The notes beneath the pieces are model-generated. The model did no database searches and was not told the DNA's origin. It saw nothing but the letters and a program-made list of their open reading frames with translations. The position numbers were made by a program, and so were the translations under genes. From Lutjanus erythropterus (taxonomy: Eukaryota; Chordata; Actinopteri; Lutjaniformes; Lutjanidae), in assembly GCA_020091685.1 (NCBI GenBank), contig CM034612.1, positions 28,574,655-28,638,654 on the forward strand: a stretch of 64,000 nucleotides of DNA, written 5' to 3'. Of the stretch, positions 4,325 through 29,963 are shown piece by piece. Within the stretch, counting starts at the first letter, position 1, and every line of letters starts with the position of its first letter.

Positions 4325-4429
4325 GTGATGAAGGAGTCGTCCCGCTGCCCACTGGGTGCACGATATTGTGCCATCCTTAATGCAGTCAACTACATTTGCA
4401 CCATCTTGGGAGACTGGGGAGACAATGTG
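4325..4429 (+). CDS. RINT1: RINT1 coding exon, last before the inverted section
   Basis: 105 nt, exactly 35 codons, phase 0 at both ends; acceptor ttccag, donor gtgtgt. The peptide holds [20 protein letters not shown], matching the RINT1 block [12 protein letters not shown]. In the family the next residues are FFLQLQQA. That exon is present, but on the other strand at 22076-21856. From this donor the next same-strand RINT1 acceptor is at 29845. Confidence 0.95.
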
Positions 4430-4777
4430 GTGTGTGAAGTTAATTAAATGTATTTCTTTTATTTACGCATTTTTGTCACAGCACTAGAAGAATGTTGCCA
4501 TGGCTGGACAGTTCTAGTTCCATGCTTGTACAGTGGCCAGCTTGGCCCTGTTAAGTCGTGCTGTTCTACACTCAAGAGAAACTATACACTGGTAAAATGC
4601 CAACTAGCATGCAAACATTGAAAATTTGGTACGAAACCACATTGACAGTATGTTTTTTTTCCTGCAGTAAGGCCTGCTTACAGTAGTCTGCGCTGATTTG
4701 AGGTGAGAAAGAGATGAGTCATCATTAAGCAGGCATAGAATTAGGAGCTATTGAGGTTTCTAGTAGGTCTGGCACCA
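4430..4777. other. Intronic sequence, nothing recognised
   Basis: Follows the donor of the preceding exon. No repeat or coding frame could be supported before the L1 fragment starts. Confidence 0.5.
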
Positions 4778-6120
4778 TCAACACAGGTCCAAAGATCCCT
4801 GATCGGTGAGCACTCCCAGAACATATGCATTGAGTACAGTGAGTACAACTGGGACTCCGGTAAAAAGTAATTTCATTTTGAAGCATTTAATAGGTGTAAC
4901 ATATGCCCTGTGAATTGTCTTGAAATGTTGTAGTTGATGTGCAAGATTTTTAGATGTACTGCCTAAGTTGGACCATATTGTCTTCCAATTTGGTACCAGA
5001 CCGACTCTGCGGAGTCCATTGTCCCACACCTTTTCAGCGGCCAGTCAAGTAGAGAGTTGTAAATGCATGTTACTGTCCCCTGAGAGACCCGTTCTGGGCC
5101 AATCCACTCCTCCATGGGGTGGTCTTGCAGGGGCTCATTCCTAGGCACCCTGTAAGCCTTCATTGCTGACCGCAGTCTCAAGTAAATAAAGTAAGATGTG
5201 CCCGGTAAATCATATTCCTCCTTAATATCCCAGAATGAACGGAGTCTAGTATTATCTAAAATATCACAGAGAATGTTAACACCTTTCTCAAAATGGGGAG
5301 GGAATGTAAATGACTGTCCACCTGATTGAAAATGATATGTTCCATAATGGAGATGTTTGATGTAATAAGCGTGTATTCCACATCGTCTTTTCGGTTTTCT
5401 TCCAGACATTTATAGAATTGGTTATGATGCTCCCGAGTTGTAAATTGATGTTTCTGCACCCCATGCTTATGTACAGTAAGTCTTCCAGACGATGTGGTTT
5501 CACACAATCTACCTTTAGCCCCCCACGGGACCTCAGATTCCAGGTTTCTCCAAGATTGCAATGGCCTAATTTGAAAAGCACAATAGTAAAAATAAAGGTT
5601 TCGGACAGCTAAGCCACCAGTGAGTTTGCTTCTTTGTAAAGTTGTGAGCTTAACTCTAGCACACATTCCTTTCCAGATGAATTGTGAGTGCATTTGGCAA
5701 TAAATTTATGTGGTGGTTCTAGAGGGATCATAAACAACAGAAAATTAATGTGAGGCAGAATGTTCATTTTAAGTGCTGAAATTCTGCCATGCAAAGAGAT
5801 ATACAGAGACTCCCACCCCTTCAGATCATCTGTAATTTTCTTTTTTTCTGAATTATTTTAGTAAGACTAAGGTAAATCTTAATGGCAAGGTACTTAAAGT
5901 AGGTACATATGGGGATGTCAGCAGTCAAATCGATATTCCTTGCAGCTGTTTTCAGTGGGAGTGGAGCAGATTTAGTCCAGTTAATTTTATATCCTGTCAT
6001 TTTCCTGAATGAATTGAAGAGTTCTAGGATTTGTGGTAGTGAAATCTGAATATTGGATATGAACAGGAGGCAATCATCTGCGTACAACGAATAGAGATAA
6101 TGTCTAGATGTATGTTATTA
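4778..6120 (-). mobile_element. L1-clade LINE fragment (reverse transcriptase to C-terminus)
   Basis: Three broken minus-strand frames read in LINE order. At 6087-5821, MYADDCLLFIS is the catalytic YADD box of reverse transcriptase, followed by GYKINWTKSAPLPL, a typical fish L1 post-catalytic segment. At 5693-5256 is WKGMCARVKLTTLQRSKLTGGLAV, the thumb/C-terminal part (L1 reads IW.G..pRik...L...k..GGL). At 5409-4963 comes more C-terminal sequence. The 5' half, with endonuclease and early RT, is absent, as in 5'-truncated insertions. Frame shifts show it is old. It sits antisense in a RINT1 intron. Confidence 0.85.
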
Positions 6121-7274
6121 TTACAGGGGTCAGCTGTACCTTACAATTTTGTACAAAAGATGAATCTAAAAAAAAAAAACATTGACAATAATGACATCAG
6201 CAACATAAATTATTTACACAAACATCCCTGTCAATCTTGACAATACAACAAGAAATGCTGTCTTACAATCATAAACTTGCAGCTTTCAATGTTCAAACAG
6301 ACAAACATTTCTGTAGCTTATTCTTTCTTAATCAGAGTTGATTTGATAAAGACAGAAGAAGCTGATAAGACATTTGTCTGTTTGTAATGAAGACTAAAAG
6401 CTGTGAGTTTATCATTCTGTGGTCCTGACTGAGAACCGCCCTGATTCAGCTACTTATTACATGAGATTTGTAGTTTATATGTTGATCTTCTTAGATTATT
6501 ATTTATATGACTGAAATGTGGGCAATAACTATTAAAATAGCTGATTATCAGATGTACATGATTTATTGCTTACAATTATACAATAGTCATGACAATAGTT
6601 CCCTGCAATGTCATGACATAAACAACTGGAGTCTCTTGCATTTTCCAGAGACACTGCGCTGAACTCAGACACACCTATGTGAGGTGGATATTAGCTTCAC
6701 TTTCAGTGCAAACATACCAACAATAGCCCATAAGAAGTACCGAACTATGAGAAATTCTTACACAGGGCTGTGTTTACTAATTGAGCAGATCCAGAGCTTC
6801 CCTTCTTTAGCTGCCAGTTAACTGCTAAAGTTAGCTCCGCAGCTGTAAAAACACTGAAGCCCACCAGCTACTAACAGCTAAAGCTAACTAACGTTACCTG
6901 ACCCTTTCCTGAATTCAACACTGATTTGTTGTCTAGACAGAGATTGTTCATGTGCTGGCAAGACTTACGGCTACCTAGCAATGGCTAAATTAAATTAGCT
7001 GATACGTTTGCTGGTTGGGTATGTGACTTATAAGCAACTAAGGTTTGCTAAGCTAGCTAGCTAGCCTGTTAGGAGTCAGCATCTGGGCTCTTCACCTGTG
7101 CTAGCATACCCGGTCGGGGCTTCACAACTTATGTTGTAACAAAATAGCTATTTTTTATGTATATTTGCTTAAAGTGAGCTTACCTGAAGACCAGTCGTAA
7201 CTGGCATGAGGTACCCTTGTCTCCAACGTTCCGTTGGCACCAGCTGCTTAACGTGCAATGGGCCAGTCCATCTC
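6121..7274. other. Unassigned non-coding stretch
   Basis: No frame or known element. A poly(A) run lies near 6168-6180. An imperfect inverted pair near 6266-6310 and 6376-6412 shares aaacagacaaa and aaactcacagctttt-like blocks and may be an eroded MITE. The 6770-7100 part is rich in gctaa/agctagct motifs, common in fish intergenic DNA. Confidence 0.4.
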
Positions 7275-28189: not shown

Positions 28190-29221
28190 AAAAACATGCA
28201 TCACCAACTGACTGCATGTACTGTACGTTTCCATGGCAACGCAAAACTTTCAGTTTAGGGTACTTCAACTGCAGGTCTTTCTTCAGTGGCATTACTAACA
28301 TATGGCTCAGCAAGTCTGCATAATGTATTTAATCACCTGAGAATCTATATCACTCATAGAGAATGTTCTTCGGAAGATATTTTTCGAAGGGGCAGTGATT
28401 TTTACAGCCAATTTCAAGGGAAAATCTGAACATGGTATCTATTTTTTCATACATCATTTTCATTCATCCTGGCATACCAGAGTATACAGTATTTGGTGGT
28501 ACTTGTGTAAAAGTTGTGTGAAACGGCTCGACTCTACTGTAGTCCACTGTACTGTGGTACTGTCTTAACGTAGCTGGAGCTGATCATCATAGCGATGATA
28601 TTCCCACAGCTGGGAAACAAAACAAGCCTTGCTTCAGTCTGGAGAAGCTGTAGCTTTTATTCACTAACAAACTCAAACCTAAAATGCACATTTACAGCAC
28701 AGTGGCTGTGCATACACTGCCAGAAGACAACTTCACAGCTCACCTTTTACTCTGCTCAGCGCATTCACTAGTAACTGTTACTATAGTCAGTAATTAGTCT
28801 GCCACCTTACCTCTCTTAGGCTCACTAAAGTTACACACTCACTACGATATACTACTCTGACCAGTCAGTAGTCTACACTGTTTCGCTGGTTCTTCATTTT
28901 TATTAGGAAATCCTGAAACTTTATCCTTCAGATGCCATGTTTCTTCTTTTCATGAAAGCCATGTTTGCCTTAGCTGCACTGCAACACAGAGACTGACCCC
29001 CGTTGGCAAGTGCTATGCACTGTTGGGATGCTGAAAAATCTGGCTTTAGGCTCAACATATTTCCCTAACTCATTAATCTTGCTTGTCTTCTAATAATTGA
29101 CTGAGATGTGAAAAAGTCTACCTGAATATCTATACAAGAATTGAATTCCACTACTTATATTTGACTCACAAAGGCCTCACATATACCACCTTGTGGTTTT
29201 AATACCCTCAACAATGACAAA
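28190..29221. other. RINT1 intron, nothing recognised
   Basis: No supported gene or element. The tract is non-repetitive by eye apart from short cacagtggctgtg-type palindromes. Confidence 0.4.
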
Positions 29222-29497
29222 TTAAAGGTCCGGTGTCTAAGAGTGTGTGTTACCTGAGAGCAGTTTCTAACTACACACATACAGAGAGCTCTTCCACAGA
29301 GACTGCTATGTTGCTCTGCCATATTTCAACAGTAGCCCAGATTGGACAAACCAAGATGGCTGCAGATACGGCTTTTCAAATTTGTGTGAGTTTCACAGCT
29401 GCTGCACGTTCTTCTCCATGTTAGGAAGGGGAGGGTAAGGTGAAGGGGTTGCTGTCTGCTGCTAGATGCCAGAAAATTCTACACAGTGGTCCTTTAA
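29222..29497. mobile_element. MITE with TTAA ends
   Basis: Begins ttaaaggtccggtgtctaag and ends ctacacagtggtcctttaa; the ends are imperfect inverted repeats (ttaaaggNccNNtgt) bounded by TTAA. TTAA target duplications are typical of piggyBac- and Kolobok-type elements (family knowledge); the superfamily was not established. The inner caaccaagatggctgc-like part also occurs in a diverged copy near 62210-62360. Confidence 0.65.
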
Positions 29498-29844
29498 AAT
29501 GCACTTGATCTAATGAGCATCCCAAGCACTTGTGCCACACTCCGCCTGAATTTAAACCGGGAGTGTGAGACTTTAACATATAAAACAGCATCCATTACAT
29601 TTGACAAGCGATGATGAGTCATACACTGTAAGTTCATCAGCTGTATATAAAAATTTATGTTGTCTAAGCTTGTTATCCTGAAAACAAATGTGCACTGCTC
29701 TGAAAATACACACTCTGGAGCTAGAGTTCAGTGACTGCCAGCCTTACTGCCTGCTTTAAGGTTTTTAAGCTGACCCATGTGGTTTCCAAGCCATGCAGTT
29801 ACAGTAAAATAGATTCAGTATATCCATGTGTCTCTCTCTGTCAG

Positions 29845-29963
29845 GTGATCCTGTCTAATCATTTCAGTGATGGCGGTGCAGCTCAGCTTCAATTTGACAT
29901 GACCAGAAACTTATTTCCTCTGTTTGGTCACTACTGCAAAAGACCTGAGAATTTCTTCAAGCA
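29845..29963 (+). CDS. RINT1: RINT1 coding exon (after the inverted section)
   Basis: 119 nt; acceptor tctctctctgtcag, donor gtaagtg. 39 codons plus CA. It encodes [20 protein letters not shown] followed by [19 protein letters not shown], one of the most conserved RINT1 blocks ([23 protein letters not shown]). It starts in phase 0, so it fits both its natural partner (the exon at 15002-14822) and, by chance, the exon at 4325-4429. A split His codon (CA|T) joins it to 31256. Confidence 0.97.

Follow-up and report, generated by a model that had tools for sequence, protein, structure and literature searches.

RINT1 exons occupy both strands of one locus

We analysed a 64,000-nt stretch of the Lutjanus erythropterus genome (assembly GCA_020091685.1, contig CM034612.1, positions 28,574,655 to 28,638,654 of the forward strand; hereafter the window, with positions counted from its first letter), which carries part of the RINT1 gene. 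Seven RINT1 exons lie in the window, and when joined they form one open frame that runs to the stop codon and encodes a 356-residue C-terminal part of the protein:

881-1018, plus strand: RINT1 exon, ending ...LLQVIT (splice sites, tblastn)
3447-3541, plus strand: RINT1 exon (splice sites, tblastn)
4325-4429, plus strand: exon e, the last plus-strand exon ahead of the flipped piece (Pfam; one full-length match in the assembly)
21856-22076, minus strand: exon f, 221 nt (Pfam; one full match in the assembly)
14822-15002, minus strand: exon g, 181 nt (Pfam; one match in the assembly)
29845-29963, plus strand: exon h, the first plus-strand exon beyond the flip (splice sites, tblastn)
31256-31469, plus strand: terminal exon, including the stop codon (splice sites, tblastn)

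Five of these exons are on the plus strand and two, f (22076-21856) and g (15002-14822), are on the minus strand. Splice sites are kept throughout, with AG preceding all seven exons and GT following each of the first six. The Pfam family RINT1_TIP1 is matched in order by the three middle exons (profile positions 255-279, 280-351 and 356-415), the single-exon matches being weak (E = 0.016, 1.8e-5 and 3.6e-10) and the last alone passing the curated cut-off. The joined peptide aligned end to end with full-length fish RINT1 (96% identity to Morone saxatilis), and its best protein matches, at 96% over all 356 residues, came from Morone, Chaetodon and Dicentrarchus, which we take to be percomorphs. 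When the Morone protein was used as a tblastn query, f and g were the only exons found on the minus strand, and the upstream exons (Morone residues 76-434) were located on the plus strand at window positions -27564 to -7847; residues 1-75 had no match in the 40 kb upstream of the window. Judged from these matches, RINT1 at this locus looks complete apart from the flip and the undetected first exon(s). A first-pass annotation of the window had put two internal exons on the strand opposite to the other five, had read all exons as joining in frame into a peptide that follows RINT1, and had called them undamaged. The first claim is borne out by the splice sites, the Pfam order and tblastn, the second by the open frame and the full-length alignment, and the third by the frame, the splice sites and a comparison with other fish proteins described below. 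Contig C22 continues for 79 kb beyond the 3' end of RINT1, and one of the gene's introns holds an imperfect palindrome at 1901-2266 (80% over 375 aligned columns).

The RINT1 exons show no decay: they contain no stops and no frameshifts, and their splice sites are intact. As a comparison set we took the best 120 listed fish proteins, retained the 115 with more than 600 residues, and of these kept the 110 with fewer than five gaps. Every residue of exons f and g is also present somewhere in these 110 proteins, and the exon g peptide is matched exactly by at least one other fish. The sole unique residue sits in exon e, where peptide residue 82 is S and all 110 others have E. At this site (4337-4339) the window reads MKESSR against MKEESR in 110/110 compared fish, and its TCG codon is at least two bases away from any E codon. 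In the mouse, Rint1 is essential, according to the part of the source cited here (PMC10348772).

A pair of inverted LINEs flanks the flipped piece

The minus-strand exons lie between two copies of one family of long interspersed nuclear elements (LINEs):

7287-7819, minus strand: older piece from the C1/C2 family, 83% alike to the end of C2 and 82% to the end of C1 (self-comparison)
9076-12274, plus strand: LINE C1, left arm of the inverted repeat (self-comparison; endonuclease and reverse transcriptase domains)
12275-22346, minus strand: stretch between the LINE arms, inverted relative to the gene (gene order and hAT-like element ends)
22347-24979, minus strand: LINE C2, right arm, an apparent three-part mosaic (self-comparison; reverse transcriptase domain)

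C1 (9621-12274, plus) and C2 (24979-22347, minus) are oppositely oriented and 95.6% alike over 2655 bp in self-comparison, with a longest identical run of 116 bp. The Pfam reverse transcriptase domain occurs in both, and an endonuclease domain in the 5' part of C1, which starts at ~9076, a point at which many other copies begin or beyond which they extend further 5'. Together, exon e, exon f and a transposon split by the flip (E2, see below) place the left breakpoint within 4430-13348 and the right within 22077-25016, 90% of the latter interval being occupied by C2. If both breakpoints are inside the LINEs, the inverted piece comprises the 10.1 kb of 12275-22346 together with portions of the LINEs. 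The first-pass annotation was thus right that the section is bounded by inverted repeats; its size of 17-25 kb was too large and is ruled out by the breakpoint intervals. LINE target duplications were also tried as a means of pairing the original flanks, and no pairing matched; among other LINE copies, a 10-bp target duplication is present in L050 and a 9-bp one, seen by eye, in L052.

The 5' side of C1 adjoins a 620-bp duplicate of RINT1 sequence that was absent from the first-pass annotation:

8458-9077, plus strand: B', the last 35 nt of exon f, its donor site and ~585 bp of intron in gene sense (97.6% over 591 bp to 21890-21300, minus strand)

An origin of B' from staggered breaks was rejected by reasoning only, the full exon remaining on the wrong side for that. 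The join between B' and C1 might have arisen when the LINE enzyme switched templates onto RINT1 pre-mRNA (template jumping); no paper on such jumping as the source of B'-like joins was found in a literature search.

A split hAT-like element records the original order

Two related elements, presumably hAT-like as judged from their end sequences and 8-bp flanks, lie in and beside the flipped piece:

17176-19675, plus strand: E1, related to E2 and complete, flanked by TTATACAG and GTATACAG (sequence comparison)
13349-13638, minus strand: left end of E2, inverted, with its terminus at 13638 by eye and the flank GAGATAAT at 13646-13639 (alignment to E1)
25017-27320, plus strand: right part of E2, outside the flip, with the flank GAGATAAA after 27320 (sequence comparison)

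The right end of E2, at 27320, has no left end beside it, and an inverted left end is found at 13638-13349. Positions 13608-13349 aligned to E1 17430-17716 with a score of 102.5, whereas none of 200 shuffles scored above 19.5; the remaining 30 bases, out to 13638, were positioned by eye so as to end on the TAGGG terminus. Seven of the eight flank bases agree between GAGATAAT and GAGATAAA. Agreement at this level occurs in 0.073% of random 8-mer pairs, and the 100 bases beyond the aligned left arm, which contain 93 8-mers, offer no instance of it apart from the 8-mer at the TAGGG terminus. At the E2 junction, ~0.9 kb of central E1 sequence is unrepresented, and we take this part of E2 to have been lost.

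When 12275-22346 is re-inverted, all seven exons fall on the plus strand in the order of the protein, and E2 has both its ends in one orientation. Because re-inversion both restores the gene order and aligns the ends of E2, the order in the window is the derived one, and the un-flipped order came first. The split element, which the first-pass annotation did not contain, is a witness of the original order that is independent of the gene. In the un-flipped layout, C2 and a second LINE-like fragment stand between the two ends of E2. That fragment, of a second type as judged by eye, occupies 12290-13348, between C1 and the inverted E2 end, and no Pfam match was obtained within it at 12642-13040.

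The right-hand LINE is a mosaic

Of 20 fetched LINE copies, the 15 whose match runs through the 3' end were set against C1 and C2; the comparison of diagnostic sites left out one odd copy, L063. Private sites in C2 number 24/705, 0/1503 and 3/425 over its three parts. In C1 they number 2/705, 13/1503 and 4/424, being fewer on the 5' side without a sharp break. The middle part of C2 is set apart from the rest as follows:

22772-24274, minus strand: inner tract of C2, widest bounds, up to 1.5 kb (23/23 L049/L050 diagnostic sites, 0 private sites)

The tract type is carried by two near-identical copies, L049 (contig C16) and L050 (contig C11). C2 has their state at all 23 diagnostic sites within 24225-22852 and at none of the 14 elsewhere (p = 1.6e-10, Fisher). 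At tract positions that distinguish L049 from L050, the base in C2 is always one present in other copies, with no private changes. From this we infer that the tract represents the consensus of a young subfamily, the type being seen in two copies. C2 is stitched from at least two, and probably three, different LINE sequences.

A reciprocal tract was looked for in C1 among the diagnostic and private sites and was not found. Three sites are exclusive to C1 and C2: one falls in the 5' part, and the other two lie on the borders of the tract or beyond them; C1 shares equally many exclusive sites (three) with L060, and no weight was given to the sharing between C1 and C2. A single clean reciprocal crossover between C1 and C2 was ruled out, because C2 has two switch points and the reciprocal tract that such an event predicts is absent from C1. 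This leaves two possibilities: repair used another LINE as its template, or a break in C2 was filled during assembly with LINE sequence from outside.

The flip is most likely an assembly misjoin

The first-pass annotation offered two readings, a real inversion that disrupts RINT1 and a mis-oriented section, and the evidence supports this pair of alternatives. Our favoured reading is that the flip is an assembly misjoin and that the animal most likely carries RINT1 in the normal order; we put its probability at about 0.58, the odds between readings being a judgement rather than a calculation. We lean towards misassembly because the gene is essential, its exons show no decay and C2 is stitched. 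In such an event, the contig would have been broken within the two LINEs, the piece between them (12275-22346 plus LINE parts, ~10 kb) would have been set in the wrong orientation, and C2 would have been closed using LINE sequence from elsewhere, so that the gap disappeared and RINT1 remained intact in the animal.

Assembly inversions between inverted repeats are a known type of artefact. They share with the present locus a flip between inverted repeats and unharmed exons, and one of the arms flanking RINT1 is stitched from several copies; the RINT1 case differs in having no gap and in the shortness of its arms relative to long reads. Repeat arms lie at both joins, and the C2 tract places the sequence of another repeat copy at one of them, although gene conversion would look alike. 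The C1/C2 family does interrupt the assembly, at least at L048 on contig C14, where a 500-N gap (L048:2299-2798) lies inside the element (1/20 fetched copies). We also count in favour of a misjoin that, in the cited part of a study of human LINE-1-mediated inversions, none of eight had additional complexity at both breakpoints (PMC9675761).

Several points weigh against a misjoin. Gap characters are missing from the joins: there is no N in the window, nor across the 118-kb stretch that starts 40 kb ahead of it and ends at the first gap, and the breakpoints are therefore not open scaffold joins. The first downstream 500-N gap, at window position ~78028, and another at ~93910, near the end of C22, have no C1/C2-type LINE at their edges. 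At just 2.65 kb, and with no identical run longer than 116 bases, the C1/C2 arms are of a size that long reads would span; the stretches over which C2 overlaps its tract, 705 and 425 bp, would give a long-read assembler little to work with. The mosaic structure of C2 can also come from ectopic gene conversion or multi-template repair, and its tract type is seen in two copies only. Finally, LINE-1-mediated inversions are documented as real in human genomes in the cited part of that study (PMC9675761). As a separate observation, the last 33 kb of C22 contain two 500-N gaps and two single N.

Inversion, duplication and trans-splicing as alternatives

It is possible, though short of probable, that the flip is a real and recent LINE-mediated inversion in this individual, in which case it would probably be heterozygous. 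The plus-strand transcript of the flipped allele would then lose exons f and g. As these sum to 402 nt and both outer junctions, on the e and h sides, are phase 0, splicing from e to h could give an in-frame protein lacking 134 residues of RINT1_TIP1. Repair with a third LINE as template would have left its trace in the mosaic C2. Such an event is favoured by the gapless sequence, by the presence of one element in opposite orientation at both breakpoints, and by a window order that derives from the un-flipped one. The similarity of the inverted arms, 95.6%, is near the medians given for human LINE-1 inversions (97.1% similarity and 5.5 kb), and in the cited part of the same study 15/15 element-mediated inversions occurred between oppositely oriented elements (PMC9675761). 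In those human cases (PMC9675761, cited part), as here, two LINEs of one family, oppositely oriented and ~95% alike, flank a kilobase-scale inversion; the present case differs in that the right LINE has a foreign tract without a reciprocal and in being known from an assembly alone.

Inversions of a few internal exons within an otherwise intact gene are also described in humans, for PTEN exons 6-8 (14 kb, with in-frame skipping in RNA) and for MSH2 exons 2-6 (19.1 kb), in the cited part of a further report (PMC11179413). The PTEN case shares with RINT1 the in-frame skipping, which for RINT1 is predicted; both human cases were established from sequence reads, and PTEN also from RNA (PMC11179413, cited part), whereas the RINT1 flip is read from assembled sequence. 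What speaks against a real inversion is that a homozygous flip should be lethal, to judge from the mouse, that the exons are free of decay, and that C1 has no reciprocal of the C2 tract, so that reciprocal hybrid elements at both breakpoints were not found. No protein bridging e to h was found among the best 120 of 551 matches, the best local alignment covering at most 54% of the query.

It is very unlikely that the window holds a decayed or duplicated second copy of RINT1 with an intact one elsewhere, a possibility raised by the first-pass annotation in the form of a second complete locus. B' does indicate that part of the RINT1 locus has been copied at least once. However, when the regions of exons e, f and g were searched against the assembly (937,629,617 bases in 444 contigs), each had one full-length match. 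For the exon e region the 12 other matches were short flanks outside the exon, the exon g region had a single match in the whole assembly, and the exon f region had one full-length match among the 40 scored of 566 candidates. Among those 40, B' alone also reaches exon f, containing just 35 nt of it, and the remainder match an intronic repeat. Thus, no second full copy of the three regions was found in the 937.6-Mb assembly (for exon f, among the 40 scored of 566 candidates). Moreover, this locus also carries, further upstream, the exons that correspond to Morone residues 76-434, and of the two signs of a pseudogene that we looked for, decay of the reading frame and a full copy of the three regions elsewhere, neither was found. 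A 202-residue Collichthys model, considered as a possible second copy, was discarded: it is identical to the full-length model P0066 over the shared exons f and g, and it is uninformative on strand.

In Drosophila mod(mdg4), some exons are on the opposite strand. We regard it as barely conceivable that the inversion is fixed and that RINT1 is made by trans-splicing of plus- and minus-strand transcripts as in mod(mdg4): exons f and g and their splice sites are conserved to the degree seen in working genes and each exon is found complete only once, but the piece would need to be spliced in at two places, and a recent or artefactual flip accounts for the missing decay without trans-splicing. The two cases share exons of one protein on both strands, and differ in that mod(mdg4) trans-splicing is established at the RNA level, in the cited part of the source (PMC12692577), and the RINT1 arrangement is known from strand layout.

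Other elements in the window

Elsewhere in the window, a frame at 49589-49969 (minus strand) matches the Pfam hAT dimerisation region (E = 6.3e-5), and frames at 51404-52003 and 52230-52631, which match no Pfam family at 0.01, are related to it by eye. Pieces of the Pfam reverse transcriptase domain were detected in frames 43028-43384 (E = 1.4e-9) and 52908-53651 (E = 3.8e-18), which by eye belong to another kind of LINE than C1 and C2.

Implications

Whether misassembled or real, the flip is a known kind of event. A trans-spliced RINT1, if true, would possibly be without precedent among the essential genes of vertebrates. If the inversion is real, LINEs would have produced, in a known manner, a natural allele of an essential gene with either loss of function or an in-frame deletion. 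If, as we favour, the flip is an assembly error, annotation would receive a truncated or exon-skipped RINT1 and comparative maps a false inversion, and the C1/C2 LINE family may cause further errors of this type.

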